A stretch of 48,307 nucleotides of DNA from a virus, in IMG/VR virus record IMGVR_UViG_3300021559_000056, positions 1-48,307 of that record; one strand, 5' to 3'. Both the position numbers and the translations under genes were made by a program. Below, piece after piece: positions 11,156 to 47,387 of this stretch. Below the pieces are notes generated by a model that saw nothing but the letters and a program-made list of their open reading frames with translations, did no database searches and was not told the origin of the DNA. Position 1 is the stretch's first letter, and every line of letters begins with the position of its first letter.

Positions 11156-11429
11156 CCCTGCCCTCTCCGTCCGGGTCGATGGTTGCAGCCGTGTCCACCG
11201 TCGCGTTCATTACCGATGCAGCGGCTATAGCGACCACCTTGGGACTGCCGCTGTGAAAGAGCTTGTGGAACGCCCATGCGAACGCCTTGACGGCCTCAGG
11301 CCCTACGACGCTGAGTAGCGTCCCACCGACTTCCAGGGGAATGCTGGCTGGGGAAGGAATCGCCCCTAGCTGCTCGGCAATGGCTCCGACTTCCGCCACT
11401 ATCGCTTCGGCTTTGGATTCTCCGCTCAC
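11148..11429 (-). CDS. Hypothetical helical protein
   Basis: 93 residues from GTG 11429, which overlaps the lipoprotein stop (GTGA); a TTG at 11456 would add nine. Reads VSGESKAEAIVAEVGAIAEQ; an Ala/Val-rich middle (VVGPEAVKAFAWAFHKLF) may touch membrane. Placed after the lysis genes; function unknown. Confidence 0.55.
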   Translation of the reverse strand: MSGESKAEAIVAEVGAIAEQLGAIPSPASIPLEVGGTLLSVVGPEAVKAFAWAFHKLFHSGSPKVVAIAAASVMNATVDTAATIDPDGEGRDV

Positions 11430-11998
11430 TGCAACCCCGGTCCTAGAGTTCCACAATAACCAAGTTCAGCCAAGGCAACAACATCACTGCAATTCACAAT
11501 CCGCATTCGTGGTGTTCCCGAAAGTGTGACTGCTGCGGGCAGAACTTTGTCCCGAAGGTCTTGCAATTCCTCTGCGCTCGGAGCTGGCCCGACGACGGGA
11601 GTACTGAATGCGACCCAGATGTTCACAGCCGCGACAATTCCAGTGACGATTAGTTGTACGCGCGCTTGAGATTTTCCGCTCAGGACTCGCAACTGTGCTA
11701 GCTCGGCAGGACTCAGCAGCCCGCTAGCGAAGATAGTGAAACACGATTGCACGCGTCCCTTGGTGCCCATCACAGTCGGGACGGTCGAGATGCACTGCGC
11801 GAGCTGGTTATCGAGCGTCACGGCCAGTGCCGCGAATTGCGTGGCTGGCAACTGGTCTTGCGCGGGAAGGTCAGGAATCGTTACGCGGAAGGTGTCGATG
11901 ATGGCAGCGATAACACGCTGGGTTGTGGCAGCCGATTGTGCGTTGCATCCGGCAAAAAGTAGAACTACGAGGCCCACGGCGAGAAGTTTCTTTTTCAT
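11426..11998 (-). CDS. Putative lipoprotein after the endolysin
   Basis: 190 residues from ATG 11998, overlapping the endolysin stop (ATGA). MKKKLLAVGLVVLLFAGCNA is a textbook lipoprotein signal with lipobox LFAGC. The mature part is Ala/Val-rich and helical. A lipoprotein right after an endolysin could be the outer-membrane spanin partner, but at about 170 mature residues it is longer than usual o-spanins; an outer-membrane adhesin or immunity role is equally possible. Confidence 0.6.
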   Translation of the reverse strand: MKKKLLAVGLVVLLFAGCNAQSAATTQRVIAAIIDTFRVTIPDLPAQDQLPATQFAALAVTLDNQLAQCISTVPTVMGTKGRVQSCFTIFASGLLSPAELAQLRVLSGKSQARVQLIVTGIVAAVNIWVAFSTPVVGPAPSAEELQDLRDKVLPAAVTLSGTPRMRIVNCSDVVALAELGYCGTLGPGLQ

Positions 11999-12480
11999 GG
12001 TGCTCCTATTCCGCTGGCATTCCACACTGCGATAATATCCCCTTTCTGATAAATTGCACGAACATTGTCGTCCGGCGACACTGGAAAAACTCCCGTCAAC
12101 TGGCAGTGTGGCGTGTCTTTTTCTGCTCCGTGCCACTCGCTGCCGCTAACAAGTCCGAGAGACTCAGCGATAGAAACCAGTCTTGCCCATGCTGGGTGAG
12201 CCGTGTCCCAATCGGGGCTTCCGGGCGTAATGTCCTCAGGTACGAGGTCAACCGCAAGGCCATAGTTGTGCCAGGAATAGCCCCCTCTAGCATGTGTAAC
12301 AATTCTTCCAGGTGTTGTTCGTCCTTCGGCATAGAGTGCATCCTGTTCGGCCCATGTCCTGAGTCCCTGCGTCACCTGAACGTCCAGCTCCGGTGCCAGC
12401 GCATCCATCTGCCTGATTGCCGCTGCGAGCTTGGGATGCACCTCACTCAGCCGCTCAAGTGATATGGTACTCAGAGGCAT
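11995..12480 (-). CDS. Endolysin: M15-type L-Ala-D-Glu/D-Ala-D-Ala peptidase
   Basis: 161 residues from ATG 12480, preceded by GGGGAGAGGATT. The VanY/M15 zinc site is clear: YSWHNYGLAVDLV at 68–80 supplies His71 and Asp78, and HC at 125–126 supplies the third ligand, with WHG at 116–118. T5-type Lys endopeptidases share this architecture. It cuts the cell-wall peptide at the end of infection. No signal peptide, so it needs a holin; several candidates lie just upstream. Confidence 0.85.
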   Translation of the reverse strand: MPLSTISLERLSEVHPKLAAAIRQMDALAPELDVQVTQGLRTWAEQDALYAEGRTTPGRIVTHARGGYSWHNYGLAVDLVPEDITPGSPDWDTAHPAWARLVSIAESLGLVSGSEWHGAEKDTPHCQLTGVFPVSPDDNVRAIYQKGDIIAVWNASGIGAP

Positions 12481-13658: not shown

Positions 13659-14156
13659 TTACGGTTTCATCTTGAAATACAGTGCAGCAAGCGCCAGCAG
13701 GAACATGAGCAGCGAGAACAGTTTGTCCACGTTCCACTGGCTCTGTTGGCGTCCCTCGATACGCTGTCCTGCCGCACCCACGCCCTGATACTGGTTCAGT
13801 TCCAGCACGGCGATTCGTTTGTCTTGCGCCATCGCCTGTGCGCTCTGTTTCTCTAGCGCGAGCGCTACGTTGTTCGTGTTCGCTACCAGCAAAGCATCAA
13901 TGCGCCGCGCCTCCGCTGCCTTGGCGTCGGCCTCCGACCGCAGCCTCTCAGCGGCTATCTTGTCAGTGTAGTGCTCCGCTTGCTTTCGGAGGTCGTCTAT
14001 GCGCCTGTTCTCGGCTTGCCGTAAATCATCCTGTCTGGTAATCGCCGCCGCTACCAGGCTGAGCACGTTGGCGGTCGGGTCGATGAGCGGAATATTCTTC
14101 GCCGCTTCCTCCAGAACTCGCAAACGCGCATCAACGTCTGAGTTAATCTCCGTCAC
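13659..14156 (-). CDS. Coiled-coil protein with C-terminal membrane anchor
   Basis: 165 residues from GTG 14156 (GTGA overlap). Residues about 10–125 are a long charged coiled coil (heptads rich in Ala, Arg, Glu), and residues about 145–162 (LFSLLMFLLALAALYF) form one transmembrane segment. Tail-anchored coiled coils next to endolysins can be holin/pinholin-type or spanin-like proteins. Orientation is uncertain. Confidence 0.6.
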   Translation of the reverse strand: MTEINSDVDARLRVLEEAAKNIPLIDPTANVLSLVAAAITRQDDLRQAENRRIDDLRKQAEHYTDKIAAERLRSEADAKAAEARRIDALLVANTNNVALALEKQSAQAMAQDKRIAVLELNQYQGVGAAGQRIEGRQQSQWNVDKLFSLLMFLLALAALYFKMKP

Positions 14157-14653
14157 GGCTTCGGTGCCTCCGGCGCTTCCTTGGTAACGGAAACCGTCTG
14201 CTCAACCGTCACCGGCGCTCCCGTTGAATCCCTGCCAGTTTGTATCGTGTGTGATTCAGCCACAAGGACATTGGGAATGTTTTCCTTTAGCCAGTCGGGA
14301 GCAACCTTCGACGTGCCGAACCAGTCGAGCAGCGAATCTGCCAGATATCCGAGCGTGAACGACGCCATCGCACCTTGCGGGAACGCGAACGGAGCTTTCC
14401 ATTGCGTGAAGAAAGCGAGAATCGTATTCACGTCGTAATGCCGGTACAGGTAGAAAATAGGTGCCTCAATCGCCATGCGAATCAGCAGCACGTCCCAGTT
14501 GGCCTTTAGATATTCGTGGCGCGATTTGATTGGATTCGTTTTCGAGCGAATCGCTTGCGCCGAACGCTTGAGCACAAAGAGAAGCTGCCCCCCAAGAAAC
14601 GCGAGGTAGTAGAGCACGTCGCCCAACTGGTGCTGGTTTAGGGGTATGGTCAT
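14153..14653 (-). CDS. Membrane protein of the lysis block
   Basis: 166 residues from ATG 14653 (ATGA overlap). Hydrophobic segments near residues 10–28, 55–72 and 90–112, and a Ser/Thr/Val/Pro-rich C-terminal tail outside. First gene after the tail-protein block. Function unknown; a holin-related role is suggested only by position. Confidence 0.55.
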   Translation of the reverse strand: MTIPLNQHQLGDVLYYLAFLGGQLLFVLKRSAQAIRSKTNPIKSRHEYLKANWDVLLIRMAIEAPIFYLYRHYDVNTILAFFTQWKAPFAFPQGAMASFTLGYLADSLLDWFGTSKVAPDWLKENIPNVLVAESHTIQTGRDSTGAPVTVEQTVSVTKEAPEAPKP

Positions 14654-17600
14654 TGCACCTTTCCTGTAATCGTCTGTGCTGGCTGCGCCGGTATCGTGAT
14701 GGTTGCCGTAGTCGGAAAACTCCCTGTTGGGAATTTACTCCACTTGCACGTTGCATCATATACCCAATATCCGTCACCCGCTCCACAGTAAGTGACTACT
14801 CCGCAATGGACGGGGCAGACGTTGGGGTCAGTGTGCAGCGAGCCAGCGGGCACGTTGAAGGTGAAGCACTGAGCTATACATGGGGCTGGAGGTTTAGGAG
14901 CGACGGAGAACCATAGGCCCAAGCCACTCTTTAGGTTCTGCGCTCCGCTGAACATGGTTGTACCATTCCATATCCCAGATGCTTCGTTTCCACAGTTAAA
15001 CAACTGAAGCGGAATAGAGCATGCCGTTACTGCGATGACATCTTCGTTCCCATCGTATAGGTTATCGCTCTGCGTCTTGAATCCGAAGTTGGCATTTTGC
15101 CCGCCTACGAAATCGTGCGACCCCCAATGGACGTAGCCCGCCGATTGGAATATTCCGGTCGCCCCGAGCGTGTGAAGGAGATTGTTTGTAATTGTGTATT
15201 CCTCTTGCCCGCGTAGCTGCTGCGTTGCAAGGCAGGGAGAGTTCCCACCGCACCCTTTATTGCTCTGCGTTGAAACAGGCGTCTCGAATAGCACAAGCGG
15301 TTTCTGAAAATGCGTGGTCATAAATCCGTACTTGAGTAGCGATTGTGAGTCGAGGGCCGTGTCCATCAGCGAGCCTTGGTCGTAGGCCCAATCGCACCAC
15401 ACTTGAGCGGCGTCGAGCACAGGGCCGCGCGGAGGAGTCTGCCACGTGCCAAGATTATCCGCGCAACCGTAGGGGATGTCTGGGAACACGTTCGTAAATG
15501 TGCCCTTCCAGGTCTTGAAATACTGCGCCGCCATCTGCCCTTCCCAAGTGGTGGTGTCTGTGGCAAAAGTAGCGCCCGCATTTGGAGGCGCGAAGTCTCC
15601 ACCTGTCTGGCAGACGCCATGGCCGATGCTCTGGAAAGTTGCGCCACTTACTTTGATGTCTCCCAGCGTATTTGTGAATGCTGGAGCAGCGCCGGATATC
15701 CCTGCTACTGTGACGACTTGCCATGAACTGCTGGCGGTATCCTTGAACTCATCATAGACGTTGTAGGCGTGGCCTACCTGATAATCGGGTAGTGTGACGA
15801 TGCACATGCCTTCGCTGCCAGTCCATGCGTGGTGAGACGAACGGGCGTTTTCATCCAGGAGTCCGCTTCCCGTAGGCCAGCCGTTTGCGATGTAGTTCGC
15901 GTTGTACGTCGCACCCGTGTTGGAATTGGCTGAGAGCGTGATGGAGATTGCGCCCGTTGAATAGACGATTGAGCCTGTAGTGCCTATCCCTGGCCCAAGG
16001 CACGTGACTGTCGCTGTCCCAGTTACGGTGGTTTGGATTCCCGTACAAGTCCCAGGGCCTGTAAAGCTGCTCCCCGTGGTGCCCGCTGTCGTCACCTGTT
16101 CGATGTTTCCGTTTGAGTCCATGAATACGGAATTCAGCGGATAGCCCGTGCTTCCGTGGAATGGCCCAGCATTTTTCAGGTTCCCCGCGCCGTCATCTCC
16201 TGCGAATGGAGTTGGGCCGAGAATGCCAGCACCAGGCGTAATATAAATCATTACGGAGTACGGGCTGACAACCGTGCTTGCTAGGGTGTGATTGCAGAAT
16301 CGGCTAGACCCAGCGCCAGTGCAGAGTAATTCAGGAGTCCCAGAACTGCTCGCCAGCCATGAGAAAGTCCAGCCTATGCCGGTCCCGCTAGAGCCAAACG
16401 TGGTGTAGCTTGACCCCCACGCGGTGTTGAGCGCTCCGATGGTGCCATATTCCTTCGATAGGAAATCGGAGAGGGTACAAGGTGTCGTCAGCGAGCACGT
16501 TGCTGGAGGAGAAGCGGCGGGAGTTTTTGTGTAGATGAGTGGGTCGGGATAAATGAACGGAGGCTGCATCCCACCACCGTAGGGTTGCGAGGTACTCAAG
16601 GTCTGCACCGGAGAAGATACCGCTACCTTCCAAGCGTAATCGCAGTCGTTCACTTGCAGCGGAAGATAACTGTGGAACTGCCAACCAGCATTCGGCATTC
16701 CGTTGAAGTCGGTGTCCTCTCCGCTGTGACCGATAGTCCAAGGACTCTTGAACGCATTGATTGTTGGAGCGTCACTAAGCATGTAGGCTTGCTGAAAAGT
16801 CTGGAATCGCGGGTCGAAGAAATCTCCTACTGCATGGCTCGCGCCGCCGCAAGTCCAGTTGGAATCGTGCGGGACGCTGACGTTGTGCAATGGCTGAGAA
16901 ACATAGCCGTTCAAGTTGGCGCTGCTATAGAGGCCGGTCTGTACATCATTCCAGAAAGGAAGATGCTGATTAGTCGGACAGTTGCCGCTGGCCGTTGGCG
17001 AGTATCCGGTATCGGACAATGGCGCAATCCCATTGAAATTCAGCGAGACGAAACTGATTTGCTCCTCTCTAACCCCGGTACAGAACGTGCCGCCAAACTT
17101 CGCTTGAATCAGCGCCTCAAGGCCAGCCCCAGCACCGCAGCCTTGTCCATCCGATGCGCATCCGATAGCTTCAAGCCATTGCCAGTTGTCGAGCGGAGTC
17201 ACGAACTGCGGGCCAGTTCCGAATGGAGTCGTAATCGTCTGGATGTTGTAGCGGGCTGGGGCAATCAATCCGGCGCTAGCGCTAAGGTTCGACCCTGCCG
17301 CCGATGGTGCGGTAAGCGTGAAATTCGTGGTGTTGGGGCAACTGAGAATTTGCGCGCCACTGACCGTGCAATTCGTTGACGTGATGATACTCGCCCCGGC
17401 GCTGGTCGTGTTGTTGACGAACGCAGTGTTGAGCGCCGTGACGCCTGTACCAGAGATGTACATCGGCTCGTTCACAGCGAATAGGTATCCGCTGGCATTG
17501 TTTGCCACAACCGTCTGCGTGGTGCTTCCGCTGTTCTGCGTGATGGATACAATCGTGAGCGAGTGTGCGTGCGCGCTGCCGCGAACGACTGTATTGCCGC

Positions 17601-17700
17601 CGAACACATCGTTAGGATAATTGTAGGTCTGCGCGGAGCAGGGCAAGGCGCACAAAAGATAGATTGCCGCCACCGCCAATTTCAGGTACTTTCTAGGCAT
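14650..17700 (-). CDS. Secreted glycoside-hydrolase-like tail/depolymerase protein
   Basis: 1016 residues from ATG 17700. Residues 1–24 are a Sec signal ending PCSAQ. After a Thr/Asn-rich stretch, the stretch from about 180 to 960 has features of a TIM-barrel glycoside hydrolase (LSDFLSKEYGTIGALNTAWG is typical of GH42-like barrels; LVLFETP could be the nucleophile strand). It also holds inserted beta-rich repeats. It would cleave host surface or matrix polysaccharide. Which residues are catalytic and whether the protein is on the virion cannot be told. Its start shares the CATG with a plus-strand ORF. Confidence 0.55.
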   Translation of the reverse strand: MPRKYLKLAVAAIYLLCALPCSAQTYNYPNDVFGGNTVVRGSAHAHSLTIVSITQNSGSTTQTVVANNASGYLFAVNEPMYISGTGVTALNTAFVNNTTSAGASIITSTNCTVSGAQILSCPNTTNFTLTAPSAAGSNLSASAGLIAPARYNIQTITTPFGTGPQFVTPLDNWQWLEAIGCASDGQGCGAGAGLEALIQAKFGGTFCTGVREEQISFVSLNFNGIAPLSDTGYSPTASGNCPTNQHLPFWNDVQTGLYSSANLNGYVSQPLHNVSVPHDSNWTCGGASHAVGDFFDPRFQTFQQAYMLSDAPTINAFKSPWTIGHSGEDTDFNGMPNAGWQFHSYLPLQVNDCDYAWKVAVSSPVQTLSTSQPYGGGMQPPFIYPDPLIYTKTPAASPPATCSLTTPCTLSDFLSKEYGTIGALNTAWGSSYTTFGSSGTGIGWTFSWLASSSGTPELLCTGAGSSRFCNHTLASTVVSPYSVMIYITPGAGILGPTPFAGDDGAGNLKNAGPFHGSTGYPLNSVFMDSNGNIEQVTTAGTTGSSFTGPGTCTGIQTTVTGTATVTCLGPGIGTTGSIVYSTGAISITLSANSNTGATYNANYIANGWPTGSGLLDENARSSHHAWTGSEGMCIVTLPDYQVGHAYNVYDEFKDTASSSWQVVTVAGISGAAPAFTNTLGDIKVSGATFQSIGHGVCQTGGDFAPPNAGATFATDTTTWEGQMAAQYFKTWKGTFTNVFPDIPYGCADNLGTWQTPPRGPVLDAAQVWCDWAYDQGSLMDTALDSQSLLKYGFMTTHFQKPLVLFETPVSTQSNKGCGGNSPCLATQQLRGQEEYTITNNLLHTLGATGIFQSAGYVHWGSHDFVGGQNANFGFKTQSDNLYDGNEDVIAVTACSIPLQLFNCGNEASGIWNGTTMFSGAQNLKSGLGLWFSVAPKPPAPCIAQCFTFNVPAGSLHTDPNVCPVHCGVVTYCGAGDGYWVYDATCKWSKFPTGSFPTTATITIPAQPAQTITGKVQ

Positions 17701-17848
17701 GGAACCTACCTTTCATCCTGACGCACCAAACCACGAGGAAATCGCTCATCTTCGCAACCTTCTTTCACGCCTTGACTCTGGCGATGCTTCCATAAAGTTC
17801 AGCCGCGAGTTTCTCTCCGCCAAGATTACAGAATTAGAGCGCATCTAG
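17699..17848 (+). CDS. Small plus-strand protein (only convincing gene on this strand)
   Basis: 49 residues, MEPTFHPDAPNHEEIAHLRN at the start, then a charged amphipathic helix to the end. It fills the only gap between two giant minus-strand genes: its ATG shares a CATG with the start of the 14650–17700 gene and its TAG shares a CTAG with the stop of the 17845–20127 gene. Composition is gene-like and the minus-strand alternative (32 codons) is poor. There is no strong ribosome site or promoter visible. An antisense or regulatory peptide is possible. Confidence 0.45.
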   Translation: MEPTFHPDAPNHEEIAHLRNLLSRLDSGDASIKFSREFLSAKITELERI

Positions 17849-20127
17849 TTTGTCGTCACCTGTTCCAAAGTTATGCTGATGTCGTAAGTCGGCGTGTTGG
17901 CAATCGCCGTGGAGTATTGGATGTTCGTGCCGCTCTTGGCGCGGAATGGAAACGCCAATTGTCCGAAGCTGCCCGAACCTAGCGCAGTACAGGTTGCCGC
18001 CGAAGTTAGTGACTGGCTCTGTGCTTGGTTGCTGGGGTCAGTCCACGAAATCGTTGGGTTCACGGTCGCCGCTGCGGATGAGTTATCGCAATTTACCGAT
18101 ACGTTTACCCTGTATCCAGCGTTCGCGTCAGGAGTGAAAAGCGTAGTCGCCGTAATCGCGGCCACTTGAGATGTCTTGGTGACGTTCGCTACCGTGAGAG
18201 GCTTGAGGATTGTTCCCGTTCCGCTATCGCTGAAACGGTTCGTCACGCTGACGAAGTTCATTTGACCAATCTTGGTATTGTTGACGTTCGAGCCGATGTT
18301 CACGCCGGTCGCGAATCCCTGGCATGTCGCGCCGTCCGCAATACTGTGGTTGGTCGAAGATGAGCCTGTGCCGCCTGTGTTCGTGAACTTGATACAGGCT
18401 CCCGTGCTGCCCTGCCCGATTATCTTCACGCCAGAACCGATTTGGTAGCGGTCACAAATGGAAGATGCAAATGAGCAGGTGAAATCTATACCGTCTGCCG
18501 TGCTCGACGGCGGCATCCAGGCTACGATGTCATCAAGAATGTTATCCGATGAAATGTTGCTCGTATTATCTACCTGAAATAACATGCATGGCTGGTTGGT
18601 TGCCCAACCACCAGTGGAATTCAGAACTGTCTTGCTGCCTCCTGGCCCACCGCAAGTTATGTGGCTGAACGTGTTCCCATGGTCGTCCAAAGAAATAAAC
18701 GGAGGGCCAATATTGTTAAGCCCAGACCTAAAAGTTAAATCGTGGTAGTTCTTTCCGACGCCGTTGCTTACCGACATCATGGATTTCCCAGAATGATTCC
18801 CTCCTGGACCGCCATCGAAGAATTCAATCGGCCCAACATTGCAGTAATCACATGCCAAGAGGGTGAGGTGACTGGACCCACTGGAGCCGGTTATCCACTG
18901 AACATTCCCGCTAAAGTCACCGGATTCTATATTGGCGTTCCCATCGACTAGGAAGCAGCCTCCTACGGCGGCACAGGTTACACCAATCCATTTGACCCGC
19001 GTGGCCGCAAGGGCCAAGCTGTTGTTCAAAACATAAAGACCATACTTCCCATCTGCGTTGATGATGTAATCCCCTCCAATAACGCCAGGGTCGTCAATCT
19101 GGTTGTGCGTCGATGGAGTCTGGTTGTCTACGACGACGATGTGCTCGTTCGAGAATGGGTCTTTAGAATTAATAACTCGATGGCCTGTACCACCGCTAAA
19201 ATTTATCCAGCCAGCGCCGCCATTCGTCGCTGTTGAGGACAAGCTGTTTATCGTGAGGTTCTGTACGGTTACGTAGTTAACCGGATGCAGTGGGTCGGTG
19301 TTTAGCCACACGCCCATCGTTCCCGTTGAAGGCATCTCTGCCGAGCAACCAATCACTGTGAAGTTGTTAGCGCCGGTGGTCAGAAACCACATATCCGTTG
19401 AGGCGGTGGTCTGCTGAATCGTGACGCCCGGTGGACACTCGATGGTGACGTTGGGAACGGTGACGTTCTTTGCCGCTGTTTCTGTATCGCTAGCCGTGAT
19501 GAGATATTTAGTATTGGCTACCAGCGTGAGTGCCGCTATTGACCCGGCTCCGCCATTCACCACGCACAGGTCAGTTGTGCCTCCAAACGTCGTGCTGTTC
19601 ACTTGAAACTGTGAGCTGCAAACTGCCCCGCCTGGGTTCGCACCTCCGCCTCCGCCTGTGCTGCTCCCGTAGAAGAATCCATTGACCCAAACATTCGCAA
19701 GAGCGCCAGCGGTGGTGGAGGTCGCCGATAGGAAGCCAATAACCCACGTGCCGTTTGCGGGCGCAGCCGCTTGAGCATGGCATCTAGGCCCAGACACCGT
19801 GGTCGTGCTGTTAATGACAAAGAATTCTCCCGCAGATGATTGGTTGCTGTCCATGATGCATTGTGCTTGCCCGTTCGTCGCTAATCCGACCAGCCCGCTC
19901 GTTCCGCAGTTGTTCATGCAGATAAACGTCGGTATGGTAGTGTCGCCCGTGCCAGCATTTATGGCCGTGTTCGTCGCCGCAATCACTTTCGCTGGGGCGT
20001 TGAGCGTCGTGCCGGTAGAGCCATCGTTTTGCAGCGGCCTCGACGGCGCACCGAACTCAATCTCTTGCGCTGCGGCAGGAAGGCCGAACGCTGCTATGAG
20101 GGCTAGAGTCAGAATAAGTTTTCGCAT
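17845..20127 (-). CDS. Secreted beta-helix tail/depolymerase-type protein
   Basis: 760 residues from ATG 20127 (AGGAAAACG upstream); the longer in-frame start at 20172 overlaps the neighbour and would bury the signal. Residues 1–21 are a Sec signal ending PAAAQ. After a Gly-rich linker near residue 160, residues about 200–640 have the Asn/Gly-rich short strands of a right-handed parallel beta-helix. A beta-sandwich C-terminal domain follows. Tailspikes and pectate-lyase-like enzymes use this fold to cut polysaccharide. Substrate unknown. Confidence 0.55.
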   Translation of the reverse strand: MRKLILTLALIAAFGLPAAAQEIEFGAPSRPLQNDGSTGTTLNAPAKVIAATNTAINAGTGDTTIPTFICMNNCGTSGLVGLATNGQAQCIMDSNQSSAGEFFVINSTTTVSGPRCHAQAAAPANGTWVIGFLSATSTTAGALANVWVNGFFYGSSTGGGGGANPGGAVCSSQFQVNSTTFGGTTDLCVVNGGAGSIAALTLVANTKYLITASDTETAAKNVTVPNVTIECPPGVTIQQTTASTDMWFLTTGANNFTVIGCSAEMPSTGTMGVWLNTDPLHPVNYVTVQNLTINSLSSTATNGGAGWINFSGGTGHRVINSKDPFSNEHIVVVDNQTPSTHNQIDDPGVIGGDYIINADGKYGLYVLNNSLALAATRVKWIGVTCAAVGGCFLVDGNANIESGDFSGNVQWITGSSGSSHLTLLACDYCNVGPIEFFDGGPGGNHSGKSMMSVSNGVGKNYHDLTFRSGLNNIGPPFISLDDHGNTFSHITCGGPGGSKTVLNSTGGWATNQPCMLFQVDNTSNISSDNILDDIVAWMPPSSTADGIDFTCSFASSICDRYQIGSGVKIIGQGSTGACIKFTNTGGTGSSSTNHSIADGATCQGFATGVNIGSNVNNTKIGQMNFVSVTNRFSDSGTGTILKPLTVANVTKTSQVAAITATTLFTPDANAGYRVNVSVNCDNSSAAATVNPTISWTDPSNQAQSQSLTSAATCTALGSGSFGQLAFPFRAKSGTNIQYSTAIANTPTYDISITLEQVTTN

Positions 20128-20146
20128 CGTTTTCCTATTGGCTCCT

Positions 20147-23113
20147 CTATTGAATGACAATCTGCCCGGCAAACGCCACTGAGAATGTCACGACTACGTT
20201 GCCAGAGTTGTCTATCGTCACGCTTGCTGGCCTAACTTGGTTGTGCGGATTGGCCGAGTCGTAGACGGTCACGTTGAAAAAGGTTGCGCCTAGCCCATGC
20301 GTGGCGGCTGGCACGCTCAGGGATGTTGTGCTCGTAAAACTGGCTGTGTACCTAACAGGTAGACTGGAATTATCTGCGAGCCAGTTGCCGGAGTTTGAAG
20401 GGTCAACGTGAATCCGGTAGCAAGCCCCTGAGATGACGGCCAATGTGGACGCAGCGGCAGTGTTGCCGGATTGGATTGTATTCGTAGTCGGTGCAATAGA
20501 ATCGGTCTGCGGAGAATCGTTGCAATATGAGTAGACGAAATTAGGATTGCTGAGAGTCGTAGGCGTAGGTAAGGTCTGCGTTATCGAGATGCCCGACGAG
20601 TGCAAGTGCGTTATCACCGTCGCGTTGTCCGCGAACCCAACCAAGTCTGAGGCGACTGCTGCGCGCCCGCCTAGCCCCACTTGGTTGATGGTCTTGTTGA
20701 CCGCAGCGTTTGCCGTGACGACGTATTCCGGTATCCACTGACCGTTCGTAACTGGCGGTGCGTTGCCGCAAATGATATTCGTGGTACCGGAAGCACAATA
20801 AACTGGGTCAGACCATTGTGATGCGTTGTTGACCGTTGACCCGCCGCCACCTGTCAGGCAGTTCACTCCCGCGCTCGTCAGCCCGGACATTTGCCCCGAT
20901 ACGAGATTGAAGTACACGCGGCAGAAGTTTGTCGCTGGATTAGGCGGCGGAGAGGATTGGCCGATAAAGTCGATGCTAAACGGCGTTACCCTGTGTGCAT
21001 TGACCAGCGGATTCGTGTAGCTCCCATTCCCGCCCCACGGAGAGGGATTCGCGCCGGTGTCGAGGTAGCTTGAAGCGGGCGCTGAGATTGTCCAGCCATT
21101 TTGCGTATTGAAAAAGTTAGAGCCTGTGGTCTGCCGCTGCAAGCAATAGGAAGTGTTCGCCACGGCACCGGCAATCGGAGTCCACGTCAGGTTGACGGCG
21201 TTGTTGCCGCCGCCCACCACGATTCCGGTAGCGGTGATGGCCGGTGCTGAGGCTGTCGCTATCGTGCTGCAATTCCCGGTTGTGTCCGCGCGGATGGAAT
21301 AGAAATAGGTTCCGGGAGCGAGTGAGCCGCCCGTTGTGGCTGACCCGGCGAAGTTCGATGGCGGCGCTGCTGCTGCGAACGAGAAGTCCAGAGCCTCGCG
21401 CACCGATTGTTGAATGTTGGCCGTGTAGCCAGCGTCGATTCCGTTGGCGAACAGTATCCCGTTGATAGGGTCGCCAGCGAGCGAGCGTTGCGCGTTGCCC
21501 GATGCGGTTATGCCCCAGCCGGAAGCAGGAGCCAACCCCTGAGTGAAAAGGTCGGTGCTCAAACGCCGTGGCACGCCAGTTGCTCCTCGCGGGTCGTCGC
21601 CGCCCGTGAATACAATCGTGTCGTTCCCATTTATGTTGTTGACGACTGCGCCGCCAACGGGCAGGCCGTTGCCGTCCACGACTGCGATTGTGCCTCCGAA
21701 ACTTGAGCCGATAACCGTGGCGCTCTGTAAGGTGCCGCCATTCATCCTGATCTGCACGCCAGAGCTGCCGTTCCCAGCGTAAGAATTGCGAATGAGGATG
21801 TCGCGCCCAACGCAGCCAGCCATGTTTGAATTGAACGATAGAACCGCTTGTCCTGTGCCAATCGCGTCGGCGTCAATCAAGTGGTCAATCAGTATGTCGG
21901 TGAAGCCGCCCGTGAGCGCCAGATTGCAAGCGTTCCCGGTATCATTGCTCACGGTTACGAAGTCCGAGCCGCTCGGTGCAGCCTCGCGCGTGATGTTGCG
22001 GAAGTACAGGCTCCCGGCTATTTGCGTGTTCTGGCGGATGGTCGAGTGAAACTGGCTGCAAGTGAGGACGAGGTTCTCGAACGTGTCGTCGTAGGTGCCG
22101 CTCCCCAGATTGTCGGCGGGCAGCAGAATGTCGTGACCCGTGTTGCCGCTCGCGCAACTTCCCGTGCCGCCCTCAAGCCACTTGAACCAAAAGCTCGTCG
22201 TCAGCAGCGTGGCGTTATCGGTGTAAGTAGTGCCGCTGCCCGTGAAGCCGGTTGTCTGCGTCGAGAGGACTACGTTGCGAAGGGTAATGTTGTTATTGTT
22301 GCGCGACGCTACGGCTTGGTTGTAGCCGCCGATGCTCAGGTTCTCAAGCGTGATTCCGTTGTTCGGATTGGCCGACGTGTTGTAGGCCGCCCCAAAGCCA
22401 AACACCGGGCCAGCCGATGGGTTAGCGCCCAGCGTGGCAACTTGAATGACTGTCTGCGGAGCCATGCCGAACTGGTCTCCGCCATTGGCAATCTGCCCGC
22501 CGCCACGGAACGTGATGCCGCCGCATGGGATGTTGAACACCGGAGCGATAGAGCCGCTGCCGCCCTGAGCTTGCGTGACGCTGAATCCACTTGTGCCGGT
22601 CGCAGGCAGGTAGATGATGCCGCCGCCCGTGGGTGCGCTTGTGCAGACAGCGTTGATGGCTGCTTGAATGGCTGCGGTCGCGTCGCCGCCAGCGGTAGGT
22701 GCGTTGTAAGGTTGAGCTGTAACGTCCACGAACGGACGTGGGCCGGTAATGGACAAACTAAATGGGATACTCAATAGGGTTGGGGACGTAACGCTATCGA
22801 CTACCACACAGTTTCCACCGCTACACGCGGTAGTAAATGCAGTGAACAAATTGTTGCTGAATTGGACGGCGTTTCCAGGGGATGCCGGGTTCCCGCTTCC
22901 CCCTCCGCCCCCCGTAGCTTCTGGATTCCAAACGCTGAGAGCCGAACACTTGTATTCCACTACGGGGTTCTGGTCGATGGCAACGTAATAATCTCCCGGC
23001 GCGCAAACTGTTGGACGAGCCGCAAGCAATCCTTCGGTGATGCGCCCGGTCACCGAAGTCTGGGCCTTTGCCAGCGGAGCGCAGAACAGGATCAGGACTA
23101 AGACACGTTTCAT
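20147..23113 (-). CDS. Secreted pectate-lyase-fold tail/depolymerase protein
   Basis: 988 residues from ATG 23113. MKRVLVLILFCAPLAKAQ is a Sec signal. Residues about 125–175 (VDVTAQPYNAPTAGGDATAA, then AAINAVC and GGGIIYLPATG) are the typical entry of a pectate-lyase-3/phage tailspike beta-helix, continued with Asn-rich coils to about 470. A fibronectin-like stretch near 600–690 and a C-terminal module ending FAGQIVIQ follow. Likely polysaccharide lyase or hydrolase. Confidence 0.6.
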   Translation of the reverse strand: MKRVLVLILFCAPLAKAQTSVTGRITEGLLAARPTVCAPGDYYVAIDQNPVVEYKCSALSVWNPEATGGGGGSGNPASPGNAVQFSNNLFTAFTTACSGGNCVVVDSVTSPTLLSIPFSLSITGPRPFVDVTAQPYNAPTAGGDATAAIQAAINAVCTSAPTGGGIIYLPATGTSGFSVTQAQGGSGSIAPVFNIPCGGITFRGGGQIANGGDQFGMAPQTVIQVATLGANPSAGPVFGFGAAYNTSANPNNGITLENLSIGGYNQAVASRNNNNITLRNVVLSTQTTGFTGSGTTYTDNATLLTTSFWFKWLEGGTGSCASGNTGHDILLPADNLGSGTYDDTFENLVLTCSQFHSTIRQNTQIAGSLYFRNITREAAPSGSDFVTVSNDTGNACNLALTGGFTDILIDHLIDADAIGTGQAVLSFNSNMAGCVGRDILIRNSYAGNGSSGVQIRMNGGTLQSATVIGSSFGGTIAVVDGNGLPVGGAVVNNINGNDTIVFTGGDDPRGATGVPRRLSTDLFTQGLAPASGWGITASGNAQRSLAGDPINGILFANGIDAGYTANIQQSVREALDFSFAAAAPPSNFAGSATTGGSLAPGTYFYSIRADTTGNCSTIATASAPAITATGIVVGGGNNAVNLTWTPIAGAVANTSYCLQRQTTGSNFFNTQNGWTISAPASSYLDTGANPSPWGGNGSYTNPLVNAHRVTPFSIDFIGQSSPPPNPATNFCRVYFNLVSGQMSGLTSAGVNCLTGGGGSTVNNASQWSDPVYCASGTTNIICGNAPPVTNGQWIPEYVVTANAAVNKTINQVGLGGRAAVASDLVGFADNATVITHLHSSGISITQTLPTPTTLSNPNFVYSYCNDSPQTDSIAPTTNTIQSGNTAAASTLAVISGACYRIHVDPSNSGNWLADNSSLPVRYTASFTSTTSLSVPAATHGLGATFFNVTVYDSANPHNQVRPASVTIDNSGNVVVTFSVAFAGQIVIQ

Positions 23114-23114
23114 C

Positions 23115-25418
23115 TTATTGCAGACTCGCCTTCCACGTGCAGCCGCCCGTAGCCGAACTGAGCGATACGGGGATAACGTCCAGTCTCACAACGGGGTTGT
23201 TTGTCGCAGCCGAAACGGGTGCGGTGAATGTCGCTCCGCCATTGATTGTCTCGCCGCTGTTTTGCGGTGTGATTGTCCATGCGCTAGTGCTCTCGATTCT
23301 GCGGAAGATGGTCTGTCTGCCGAGGCAGGTCTGGAGCGTGTGCGTGCAGGTGGTGCATTGCGTGAGGCGCGCGTAAGCGTCAACGTCTAGTTCCTGCGCG
23401 GTGACTGCTGTTCCGAATACCGTTCCAGCGCCAAGTCCGGTTGTGTCGGTGAAGAAAGTTACCGTTGTCCCCGTCGAGCCGTTGACGTGCCAGCACTGGA
23501 GCGCCCCTGCCGTGGTGGGCGAATTGTAGCCAGCAGGAGTTACGCCAGCGACCGTGATGCAGGAGCCAACCGGGAAGACGTTTGCGGCGAATGTCAGCGT
23601 GACTGTGTTACCCGACTCACTTGCCGCCGTTATGGTGTTCGGGGCAGTCGCCGTGACGCCGTAAGTGTTCGCGGTCGCCCATGTGGTGTTGCCGTAGAAG
23701 GCATTGATTCCCCGCTGCCCCATGAACGAAATGTTGTTCCAATAACTGCCAGAGGTCGGGTGAATGTGGTCGCCTTGAAATCCAGTTCCAACATCGGCGT
23801 TGTCCGCGCCTATTAGTGCATCCATTGCTACGTCGTTCAGCCCGTCAAACGCCGTAGTCCAGTTCTGACGGATGAGCGGATTCAGCACATCCTTACGCGT
23901 CGAATCGTTTACGCCGCGAGAAAGCATGGTTGCCACGATTGTCTTGAATCCACAGAGTCGGGCCTGGGCCGAAATGGATGCGAGGTTATTGTAGGTTTGA
24001 ACGGCACTCTTGGCATCAAGCTCAAGGTCATTCGTACCGGCCCAAATGTGTACGAAATTCTTTCCGGCGAACGGCTTGAAATATGGGCAGGTGTTGAGTG
24101 GGACTGATCCGCGAATGTTCTCAGCTGACTGGTTCGGATAGGCATTACCAGTAACGTCGGGCGTGTTGAACGCACCTGAGAACGTAATCATGCGCGGCCA
24201 CGGAAATATCGCGCCAAATCCTTCGGTGATTGAATCTCCTAGAAATAGACCTTCATCCAGTAGGTTGATGGCGTTGACCGTACCATTGTCGGTGTTTCCA
24301 AAGACGGTCGAGACGCCCTTCGATGCCACGTAACTAGTGAGTATGTTGTGGACGGCGAGGACTTCCGATGCCGCAGGCACGCGATTCCAGAATATGACGG
24401 CGTAGACCTTGCCGAACATATAGGTAGTGTTCGTCATGCCACTGCCAGCAGCGGTACCGCAAATCTGATAGGCTCCGGTGGTCTGCTTCGCAGCAGTATT
24501 GCCGCAAGCCCCATTCGGTGAGCCGATGCCATTCTGGCAATCGGTAACAAACTTCCCGTTCACATACAGCACATCCGTAGCGGCTGGTACCAGTGCTAGG
24601 CTCCCCGCCCCATTAAAGGAAGATGAGGCGAGCGATGTGTAGGCGTTGTTTCCCGCAGCGCGGATTCCCATGCCGCCACCCATTGCCGCCGTGATGCCCC
24701 CGTAACGATTCGAGAGCATCATGTCGATATTACCGCCCGTCGCTCCGTTTCCATTCCCTGCAATGAACGCCATGTCGGTCGCGGATGTGCTGAAATCAGA
24801 GGAAACCGCGCCCCAAGCCATCATCGCGAGTGCCGGATTAGCGCCGTTTGAGTTGAGTGCTGCGGGAAGGATTACCGCTCCGTTCTGCGTGCAGTTCAGT
24901 CCACCGGTGACGGCGATTACCGTTGGAGCGGTGCCGACTGTCCCTGTGGCATTGCCTACGCCGCCCGTCGAGAAGTCGGTCAGGCTTGCAGCGGTATCCG
25001 TCGCGGGGATGAGGTACATGCCGATGATGCCGGAAGATGCGGCATTCAACTGAGCAGCGATGGAAGTTACGGAATTGGGATTGCCGCTTCCCCCGAGCGG
25101 TGAAGCATTCAGTGCGGCGGTTATATCTTGCAAAACTCCGGTTGGCTGCACATTCGTTTGCAGACAGCTCGCTCCCGTGGAATTGCAAACCCGAATTACC
25201 GACACGGAACCTTGAACCAAATTAGTAATCGTCAAGTTTCCGTTCGGGTCTAGAAAATAAGACGTGTGATTGACAGCTCCCCCGTTTGGAGCAATCGCCA
25301 TTACCTCCACTGTTCCATTGGCGTACCCGACTCCCATCACCATGCGAACCTGCGAAGTCGTCTGTGCTTGGGCGACGGAAGCTATTAGCGCGAGCAATGC
25401 AATCCAAAGTGTTTTCAT
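23115..25418 (-). CDS. Secreted SGNH/GDSL hydrolase with LamG-like domain
   Basis: 767 residues from ATG 25418; AGGAG lies four bases upstream, and a longer frame to 25715 overlaps the upstream gene. MKTLWIALLALIASVAQAQ is a Sec signal. Residues about 150–370 look like a ConA/LamG jelly roll (YMFGKVYAVIFWNR). The SGNH esterase follows: GDSIT near residue 391 with the nucleophile Ser, AGTND near 459, and DHIH near 549 with the Asp-x-x-His pair. It would remove acetyl or acyl groups from host polysaccharide. Beta-rich C-terminal part. Confidence 0.75.
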   Translation of the reverse strand: MKTLWIALLALIASVAQAQTTSQVRMVMGVGYANGTVEVMAIAPNGGAVNHTSYFLDPNGNLTITNLVQGSVSVIRVCNSTGASCLQTNVQPTGVLQDITAALNASPLGGSGNPNSVTSIAAQLNAASSGIIGMYLIPATDTAASLTDFSTGGVGNATGTVGTAPTVIAVTGGLNCTQNGAVILPAALNSNGANPALAMMAWGAVSSDFSTSATDMAFIAGNGNGATGGNIDMMLSNRYGGITAAMGGGMGIRAAGNNAYTSLASSSFNGAGSLALVPAATDVLYVNGKFVTDCQNGIGSPNGACGNTAAKQTTGAYQICGTAAGSGMTNTTYMFGKVYAVIFWNRVPAASEVLAVHNILTSYVASKGVSTVFGNTDNGTVNAINLLDEGLFLGDSITEGFGAIFPWPRMITFSGAFNTPDVTGNAYPNQSAENIRGSVPLNTCPYFKPFAGKNFVHIWAGTNDLELDAKSAVQTYNNLASISAQARLCGFKTIVATMLSRGVNDSTRKDVLNPLIRQNWTTAFDGLNDVAMDALIGADNADVGTGFQGDHIHPTSGSYWNNISFMGQRGINAFYGNTTWATANTYGVTATAPNTITAASESGNTVTLTFAANVFPVGSCITVAGVTPAGYNSPTTAGALQCWHVNGSTGTTVTFFTDTTGLGAGTVFGTAVTAQELDVDAYARLTQCTTCTHTLQTCLGRQTIFRRIESTSAWTITPQNSGETINGGATFTAPVSAATNNPVVRLDVIPVSLSSATGGCTWKASLQ

Positions 25419-25426
25419 CATGCTCC

Positions 25427-26143
25427 TCATGGGTGGCCGACCTGCAAGGCGGTGATCTGGTACGTCTTTGTCGCCACAGGCAAACCTAAATAGGTCAGCA
25501 AAAGCTGTGTCGTGGTAGTCGTGTACTCGATGTCTGAGAATTGCCCTGTCCCGTTCGTCATCTTCGGTAGGGAAAGCGGTGCAAGCAGCCACGCTCCGTC
25601 GTGAAACGTCAGCGTAATAGTCGGGTTCGATGATGGCGTTGTTCCCGCCGTAACGAGCAACTGAAACATCGTATCCGTTCCGACGATTGCCGTCAGTGTC
25701 GCTCCCGTTCCCCAACCGGAAAATGCGAAGTCGCCAATCACAAGCGGACTTCCCAGTACGGCTTGAATCCGGTTGATGTTTCCCGGCTGCGTCATAACCG
25801 GAGGCAAGATGACGCTCTGCGCTACCGCCGTATTCAGATTGAAGTTCGTTCCGTTGATGAGGAACAGCACCGTCCCGACTTCGTTCTTGTTCGAGTCGCG
25901 GAAGGTGACAAGGTACAAAGTATTCGCAGGATCGATGTTGTCATTGCCCCAAAGATTCGTGCTGACATTTCCATTCTCATCCGCCTGCACGGTCTGCGTT
26001 AGTGCCGGGAAGATGCCTGTCCCGATAACGCGCGGCACGGTGCCTACCCCTAGATTGGTCAGCGTGAACACCACGCTCCCAAAAGTCGCGCTGCCGCCTA
26101 GCAATGTGCGAAGGCTTCCCGTTACCAAGCACGGAGTCGGCAT
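25427..26143 (-). CDS. Tail-associated protein
   Basis: 238 residues from ATG 26143. Begins MPTPCLVTGSLRTLLGGSAT; beta-rich throughout (VVFTLTNLGVGTVPRVIG, NTLYLVTFRDSNKNEVGTVL). The fold resembles carbohydrate-binding or tail-fibre connector domains that sit just before spike genes. No signal peptide, unlike the four following genes. It may anchor one of them to the virion. Confidence 0.5.
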   Translation of the reverse strand: MPTPCLVTGSLRTLLGGSATFGSVVFTLTNLGVGTVPRVIGTGIFPALTQTVQADENGNVSTNLWGNDNIDPANTLYLVTFRDSNKNEVGTVLFLINGTNFNLNTAVAQSVILPPVMTQPGNINRIQAVLGSPLVIGDFAFSGWGTGATLTAIVGTDTMFQLLVTAGTTPSSNPTITLTFHDGAWLLAPLSLPKMTNGTGQFSDIEYTTTTTQLLLTYLGLPVATKTYQITALQVGHP

Positions 26144-26668
26144 CTACCTGAACACCCTTGGATTCAGAATCCCCGGAACACCACCGCCTATTCCTGCTCC
26201 ACCGCCTACGCCCGATTGATTCACTGGAACCTGCGAGATAGGGTTAGTCGTTGTGGTTGCGGCTGCTTTACCTGGCGCTGGCAACGAAACAGGCCCACGC
26301 GCGCTAGGGCTTGAAGCGATGGCCTGCACCCAGTAGAAGCGTGTAATCGTATCGGTAATGTTGGGCCTCAAGATGGAATTTGACAGTCCGCCAATGTTTG
26401 CAGGGACGGTCTGGAACGGAACGCCTGCCGGTGGAGTCTTCGTGTTCGTCTCGAATACCGCGTAACTGACCGCTCCCGGCACTTCGTTCCACACCACCTG
26501 CACCGAATTCGGCTGGCTCACGGTCGTAACAATTGGTGCTGCGAGAGGAGTCAATGGGGCTTGCAACTGATAGAGTGTCGTCATCACCCACGAGAGAAAC
26601 CGCTGCGTCTCCGAACCTAGAGCGGAGTCGTTCGGTACGTTGTTCCACGGTCGTAGCGGCCCAGGCAT
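26144..26668 (-). CDS. Fibronectin-type-III-like tail protein
   Basis: 174 residues from ATG 26668. Residues about 45–130 (PNSVQVVWNEVPGAVSYAVF, then TRFYWVQAIASSPSARGPVS) follow the fibronectin-III strand pattern with the core Trp and Tyr. A Gly-rich tail (GVGGGAGIGGGVPG) follows. Abuts both neighbours by one base. Probably part of the tail or spike complex. Confidence 0.6.
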   Translation of the reverse strand: MPGPLRPWNNVPNDSALGSETQRFLSWVMTTLYQLQAPLTPLAAPIVTTVSQPNSVQVVWNEVPGAVSYAVFETNTKTPPAGVPFQTVPANIGGLSNSILRPNITDTITRFYWVQAIASSPSARGPVSLPAPGKAAATTTTNPISQVPVNQSGVGGGAGIGGGVPGILNPRVFR

Positions 26669-27201
26669 TAGTTCTCAATCCTCCGCAGGACGTACACCTT
26701 GTCCATGTCGAGTCGATTGCCATTGCGTACCAATGCTTCTGGTTTGCGCTCGCGTATCCATCTGAGCGTCTGTTCATCTGCCACGAATGCTCCACAGTTC
26801 ACATTGAGCAGTTTGTCGTATGCTTTGTTCCATCGTTTCTCGAAGCTGGTGAGCGAGTCGCCTTCCTTCACTGGAATGTCCGGGTTGCGCTGCCACTTCC
26901 GCATCACGTTCGTCAGGATGCCGTCGAGGTCTTTCATTAGCCGCCCATGCCACTTGCCTACATTGAAGCGCCGGAACTGGTAGTCCTTCACGAGCGGCAC
27001 CTTGAGTTCTTCTGCGACAATCGTTCCCGCAAACTCATCGAGGTCGGAGCAATAGACTTCCGTTACGCCCCTGTCCTTGAGTTGCTGGCACATAGCCTGC
27101 AATTTCTTGCGGCCTTCGCGGTCTACAGGCAGATGCCTCCATCCTTTCGCGCGCTCTCGTCGGTCAAGTCTGTCTAGCGGGATTGGAAGTAGGTAGAGCA
27201 T
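26668..27201 (-). CDS. Histidine-phosphatase-fold protein, catalytic histidines missing
   Basis: 177 residues. GWRHLPVDREGRKKLQAMCQ, then TEVYCSDLDEFAGTIVAEEL and FRRFNVGKWHG at 76–86, follow the phosphoglycerate-mutase-like family (SDL..A.QTA, RE..FG.WEG). The N-terminal RHG that carries the phosphorylated histidine is replaced by PIPLDRL, and the second catalytic His of the family is not seen near FVADEQ. It is therefore probably not a normal phosphatase; it may be a structural or regulatory derivative. Its place among virion genes is unusual. Confidence 0.6.
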   Translation of the reverse strand: MLYLLPIPLDRLDRRERAKGWRHLPVDREGRKKLQAMCQQLKDRGVTEVYCSDLDEFAGTIVAEELKVPLVKDYQFRRFNVGKWHGRLMKDLDGILTNVMRKWQRNPDIPVKEGDSLTSFEKRWNKAYDKLLNVNCGAFVADEQTLRWIRERKPEALVRNGNRLDMDKVYVLRRIEN

Positions 27202-46968: not shown

Positions 46969-47043
46969 CTAAACGTGTGCCGTCTGCGCTCCCGCACTCC
47001 CGCAGCACGCTCCCAGCAGCAAACACAAAAGAGTGAGTTTCAT
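46969..47043 (-). CDS. Orphan signal peptide ORF (24 residues)
   Basis: ATG 47043 overlaps the stop of the gene before. Reads MKLTLLCLLLGACCGSAGAQ then TAHV and stop: a complete signal sequence with almost no mature part. The start context GCGCCC-ATG-AAACT is shared with the gene at 47387. It may be a relic of a deleted secreted protein or a membrane peptide. Likely last gene of the early operon. Confidence 0.35.
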   Translation of the reverse strand: MKLTLLCLLLGACCGSAGAQTAHV

Positions 47044-47387
47044 GGGCGCACCTCGCAAAGCTTTTTATCTAGCACGCGCATCTCTACCGCGTCCATTGCG
47101 GCAAGGTCTGTTTCAAATTCTTCGCTCATTCCAAAATCCGTGACCCCATGCACCCAATCATTACGACCCATATTTGCATAGCCCCACCAACTTTCCCCGA
47201 TGCCTTCAACGCGGCCAACGATTAAACCGCTTGAATTACAAACGATGTCAAATTCCGGATAACTGCCGATGCTCTTATCCGCCCAGTGTGCATAGCTCAT
47301 GTGAGAGGCAGGGCGCGGAAACTTCAGGTCATGGTCAGCGCAAGCCCCACAGCACAGCAAGCAGATCGCTAGGGCCAAAAGTTTCAT
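47040..47387 (-). CDS. Putative secreted/lipoprotein of early operon
   Basis: 115 residues from ATG 47387. MKLLALAICLLCCGACADHD is a signal with possible lipobox (CCGAC). The mature part holds two Cys and a Trp-rich segment (ESWWGYANMGRNDWVHGV). An early secreted phage protein may alter the envelope or block superinfection; unproven. Confidence 0.55.
   Translation of the reverse strand: MKLLALAICLLCCGACADHDLKFPRPASHMSYAHWADKSIGSYPEFDIVCNSSGLIVGRVEGIGESWWGYANMGRNDWVHGVTDFGMSEEFETDLAAMDAVEMRVLDKKLCEVRP

Follow-up and report, generated by a model that had tools for sequence, protein, structure and literature searches.

Tail spikes of tailed phages are usually regarded as cytoplasmic products that are attached to the particle before lysis. 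The locus described here resembles those of known tail spikes and depolymerases in its position behind an adaptor gene in the tail locus, in its combination of a constant N-terminal module, a swappable body and shared C-terminal domains, and in the presence of an SGNH esterase domain. In contrast to described tail spikes, which have no signal peptides and are both produced and mounted on the particle in the cytoplasm, its proteins carry predicted Sec signals and many cysteines. The closest exported protein with a tailspike fold is WceF of Pantoea stewartii (PMC7949094), which acts on exopolysaccharide and has a trimeric, tailspike-like beta-helix. This enzyme is encoded on a bacterial chromosome and carries a Tat signal, whereas the genes considered here belong to the tail operon of a phage and their products bear predicted Sec signals. 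Phage proteins that use the host Sec system during infection are known from the Sec-exported and SAR endolysins (PMC6116005). Those endolysins serve lysis, and their SAR segments are released without being cut, whereas the present proteins are spike-like and have predicted cleavage sites. Genes acting on polysaccharides also occur in soil phages (PMC6786970), but those of the present locus form a tail-locus cassette that combines spike domains with export signals. A search of one open-access library returned no precedent for signal peptides on tail spikes across a phage lineage, a result that does not by itself prove their absence.

The analysed stretch of DNA (the window; IMGVR_UViG_3300021559_000056, 48.3 kb) belongs to an uncultivated, tailed soil phage whose capsid, portal and terminase are encoded on the minus strand. 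Four large, consecutive open reading frames on this strand were confirmed, with starts at 25418, 23113, 20127 and 17700. They encode an SGNH protein of 767 aa (23115-25418; ATG codons at 25418, 25421 or 25430 in one frame) and three proteins named here by their start positions, the 23113 protein (20147-23113, 988 aa), the 20127 protein (17845-20127, 760 aa) and the 17700 protein (14650-17700, 1016 aa). The set overlaps both the upstream adaptor gene and the downstream gene, and one gap of about 145 bases separates 17845 from 17700. Due to this tight packing with their neighbors, the four genes are placed in a late operon, and like the genes of tail spikes they belong to a tail locus. The adaptor (25427-26143, minus strand) is signal-less and consists of a conserved N-domain and a spike C-domain, without the central body of the long spikes found in the relatives G016 and L031. 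Upstream of it, a further signal-less tail-cluster protein (26144-26668, minus strand) is conserved in the clade and shows a weak match to a major tail protein (phrog_7440, E=3e-4).

Each of the four proteins is predicted to start with a Sec signal. On the minus strand, the signals span 25365-25418 in the SGNH protein (MKTLWIALLALIASVAQA, followed by QTT), 23063-23113 in the 23113 protein (MKRVLVLILFCAPLAKA, followed by QTS), 20068-20127 in the 20127 protein (MRKLILTLALIAAFGLPAAA, followed by QEI) and 17632-17700 in the 17700 protein (MPRKYLKLAVAAIYLLCALPCSA, followed by QTY). All four share the features of Sec export and signal peptidase I cleavage, with a positive n-region, a long uncharged hydrophobic core of 8-15 residues, and a small-x-small site (A-x-A) that is followed by Q and shows no lipobox. 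The signals were called by a home-made strict n/h/c-region rule with a shuffle control, i.e. a rule-based prediction rather than SignalP. All four window proteins pass this rule, compared with 0.2-0.45% of draws for composition-matched shuffles of the same proteins. Elsewhere in the window, with tail zones for signal counts delimited after inspection, 2 of 40 coding-strand ORFs pass, both of them lipoprotein-like (within 11426-12136 and at 47040-47387). An earlier reading made from the sequence only had described clear signals ending in AQ on four consecutive genes and had proposed signal-peptide prediction as a check; its description holds for every one of the four, and the rule-based form of the check was passed throughout.

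The start of the 20127 gene is preceded by a GGAG/AGGA-type ribosome site, and in the 23113 protein the signal and about 45 of the next residues are kept in the relative G3 (41-48% identity). Wrong start codons were rejected as a source of the signals, since signals and bodies share one reading frame and ribosome sites precede several of the starts. Contaminating host DNA was rejected as well, because a second contig carries an identical SGNH gene and other phages have a locus of this type. None of the four signals contains the RR of a twin-arginine (Tat) signal. They also differ from SAR segments, which are weakly hydrophobic, uncleaved and belong to lysis enzymes: their cores are strongly hydrophobic and have A-x-A sites, and Pfam and PHROGs searches gave no muralytic family match for the four proteins. 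From their signals, we infer that the four proteins would be translocated and cleaved.

To place the locus within its lineage, related phages were identified with the capsid protein and the adaptor (25427-26143) as queries, yielding about ten relatives that are mutually non-independent. Six of them, with capsids about 75-83% identical (G3, G9, L027, L029, L030 and partly G7), carry tail-locus signals. In these phages, the genes after the adaptor begin with signals, and most of the bodies are unrelated to those of the window. Signals are also present in a more distant phage (phage B, capsid identity 51%), including one inside the head-tail gene cluster. The sequence of phage B is joined into the record IMGVR_UViG_3300020579_000009 (L029 / L068-L070; 78,747 bases), which contains two sets of capsid, portal and terminase genes and looks like two related phages joined during assembly.

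The deposited uncultured podovirus MW202554, with a capsid only 22% identical, carries signals on UOF78508, UOF78515, an unannotated ORF and UOF78518. UOF78518 matches a tail-collar fiber family (phrog_9116, E=3e-35), and a strong ribosome site precedes its start. It is the weakest member of the signal set, because its n-region lacks both K and R and does not pass the strict rule. The unannotated ORF (L071 14810-15403) encodes a signal-bearing protein of 197 aa and is flanked by two annotated genes that also have signals. In the available DNA of G016 and L031, the adaptor is not followed by any signal-bearing spike gene, the L031 stretch being short and ending soon after. In capsid relatives that infect the Gram-positive Arthrobacter and Microbacterium, the genes close to that of the capsid include esterases, hydrolases and glycoside hydrolases, all without signals. 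Signals are likewise absent from the tail proteins of a cyanophage and of Microbacterium phage Brahms that match the MW202554 collar. As judged from these comparisons, tail-locus export signals are a trait of the lineage.

Behind its signal, the SGNH protein contains a predicted SGNH/GDSL esterase domain (PF13472, residues 392-556, minus strand). The match (E=3e-6, 28.3 bits) lies below the curated cut-off of 32.9, and the catalytic blocks GDS, GxND and DxxH are present as the motifs GDSIT, GTND and DHIHPT, which together support the esterase label given in the earlier reading. The 23113 and 20127 proteins are spike-like, with a putative beta-helix suggested by sequence pattern. The C-terminus of the 23113 protein (residues 930-987) shows a weak match to a virion structural protein (phrog_10468, E=0.0021). 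AlphaFold predictions from single sequences without homologues reached a pLDDT of 36 for the 20127 protein and 31 for the 17700 protein. The 17700 protein, previously described as glycoside-hydrolase-like, found no sequence match in Pfam, PHROG, NCBIfam or the PDB, and this label is thus unconfirmed. A direct search returned no relatives of the 23113, 20127 and 17700 proteins among viral contigs; the 23113 and 17700 proteins have none among phages, and the 17700 protein none among plasmids. The SGNH protein is likewise without phage relatives, save for a near-identical contig. Esterase, depolymerase and other enzyme activities of the four proteins are considered putative.

The relation of the signal-bearing proteins to tail spikes becomes apparent from the adaptors and C-terminal domains. 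G016 and L031 each have a long, signal-less adaptor (641 and 631 aa) that includes a spike-like body. The window, G3, G7, G9, L029 and L030 combine a short adaptor (219-271 aa) with signal-bearing spikes, and the short adaptor of the window and G3 corresponds to both ends of the long spike minus its middle. This swap is a tendency rather than a strict rule, because L027 carries a long signal-less spike and signal-bearing proteins side by side. The C-terminal domain of the signal-less G016 spike recurs at the C-terminus of signal-bearing proteins of G9 (42% identity, E=4e-12), L030 (E=4e-9), L029 (E=3e-8) and phage B (E=6e-9). In the window, residues 652-756 of the 20127 protein (17860-18174, minus strand) form a second C-terminal domain, which is shared with the signal-less adaptors of L029 and L030, with a profile search value of E=2e-7 versus 0.54 for the best decoy. 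Between L029 and L030, the signal and the first 38 codons are identical at the nucleotide level while the whole proteins are 44% identical, indicating that the N-terminal module is kept and the bodies are swapped. Based on domain sharing with signal-less spikes, the 20127 protein and the relatives' proteins are predicted to be built like tail spikes; for the 23113 protein, such sharing is limited to the weak phrog_10468 match, and none was seen for the SGNH and 17700 proteins. A further case of near-identity was observed between L030 (10720-13456) and L069 (7286-9962), where a spike C-terminal domain and the next gene of 142 aa appear nearly identical and the capsids differ by about half, which suggests a recent exchange of this module between lineages.

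The mature signal-bearing proteins contain 2.34% cysteine, compared with 0.61% in signal-less structural proteins of the same phages, the comparison sets being hand-picked. The enrichment gave a Fisher p=1e-25, an optimistic value as the test takes residues as independent, a per-protein rank test of 7e-7, and 0.003 for the window alone. Cysteine counts of the four window proteins are 28, 20, 18 and 14, all even, with the 28 of the 17700 protein located after its signal. In several relatives, a cysteine pair spaced 8-10 residues apart is found in the domain behind the signal. Cysteine-poor exceptions among the signal-bearing proteins are the unannotated MW202554 protein (L071 14810), which has none, and a protein of L029 (13333) with 0.45%.

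Glutamine occupies the +1 position in 15 of 20 signals, as determined by a site caller blind to +1; on one Acidobacteriota plasmid, the same caller found it in 9 of 19. Frequent Q at +1 has been described as typical of Bacteroidetes, with fractions below 20% in Chlamydiae and Spirochaetes (PMC5837995). This context suggests a host with such a secretome, e.g. from the Acidobacteriota or Bacteroidota. Export would presumably be of the Gram-negative type. A scan of genome contigs with the capsid alignment gave no match, and tRNA scans returned no hits.

Building on the signals, their recurrence in the lineage, the spike-type domain sharing, the high cysteine content and the frequent pairing of short adaptors with signal-bearing spikes, we propose that these tail-spike-type proteins would be exported via host Sec late in infection. 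Host signal peptidase I would cleave the signal, so that the mature protein starts with glutamine. In the periplasm, these cysteine-rich spikes would then fold, probably with disulfide formation. Particle assembly would take place in the cytoplasm, with the short signal-less adaptor and without a central spike body. Once lysis breaks the membranes, the periplasmic spike pool would meet these particles and dock, so that the docked spikes may act as their esterase and polysaccharide-binding or -cutting heads. Sec export itself appears highly likely, and is well supported because the signals are canonical and lineage-wide, their cleavage context is host-like, and the mature proteins are rich in cysteine. 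Given export, docking onto virions is reasonably probable. For export, cleavage, periplasmic and probably disulfide-assisted folding, and docking on virions at lysis taken jointly, we see an even chance. That virions are completed in two compartments, from cytoplasmic stub-adaptor particles and secreted, disulfide-bonded enzyme spikes that dock at lysis only, is a more tentative proposal, with a probability somewhat below even.

The main rival explanation involves the same Sec export, but the products would be no part of the virion. They would be enzymes acting in solution or at the cell surface, where they loosen exopolysaccharide either ahead of lysis or following it. The signals, the SGNH domain and the occurrence of several different bodies in one cassette would suit such a secreted enzyme set, and active glycoside hydrolases are known from soil viruses (PMC6786970). 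However, spike-type C-domains and constant N-terminal modules are shared within the lineage, and a stub adaptor replaces the long virion-type spike in most signal-bearing genomes. The domain architecture favors virion spikes matured outside the cytoplasm, and free enzymes are considered less likely, albeit as the strongest competitor. For the earlier proposal of a secreted polysaccharide-degrading set, this means that the export part agrees with the canonical, lineage-wide signals and the cysteines, while the free-enzyme part fits the domain architecture less well.

The same reading had also raised the acquisition of host exoenzymes and a virion-anchoring role of the hydrophobic N-terminus. 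If the cassette had been captured from the host secretome, signals included, and still encoded host-type exoenzymes, the resemblance of the signal context to that of the Acidobacteriota plasmid and the lack of further phage relatives for the SGNH and 17700 proteins would be in line with it. The 20127 protein and the relatives' proteins, however, bear C-domains of the phage lineage that are also found in signal-less spikes or adaptors of sister phages, and one scan of genome contigs with the signal-plus-N-domain alignment found no cellular homologue of this module. Host capture is therefore less supported overall and improbable for the set as a whole, yet it is a possible origin of the SGNH and 17700 proteins. 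An anchor that is never removed and holds the protein in the membrane or virion is the least probable of these explanations. The strong hydrophobicity of the segments speaks for it, but an anchor has no need of the small-x-small site followed by Q that nearly all of them possess, and the cysteine enrichment of the portion behind the signal argues against it.

If maturation of spikes outside the cytoplasm holds true for the whole lineage, virion assembly would gain a second compartment, and spikes could make use of disulfides. Predictors that discard signal-bearing proteins as bacterial would then miss receptor-binding proteins. Some carbohydrate enzymes of soil viruses may likewise be exported spikes, for which the label 'auxiliary metabolic gene' may be wrong.

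Additional genes were observed in the window. Within the tail gene cluster, 26668-27201 encodes a clade-conserved protein of the histidine-phosphatase superfamily (PF00300, E=6e-14). Two small genes at 11426-11998 and 47040-47387 carry lipoprotein-like signals (MKKKLLAVGLVVLLFAGC and MKLLALAICLLCCGAC), consistent with a diderm host. After the spike genes, a coiled-coil protein with a hydrophobic C-terminal segment (13659-14156) is kept in G7 (64%) and phage B (59%), and is possibly a lysis or tail-accessory protein.
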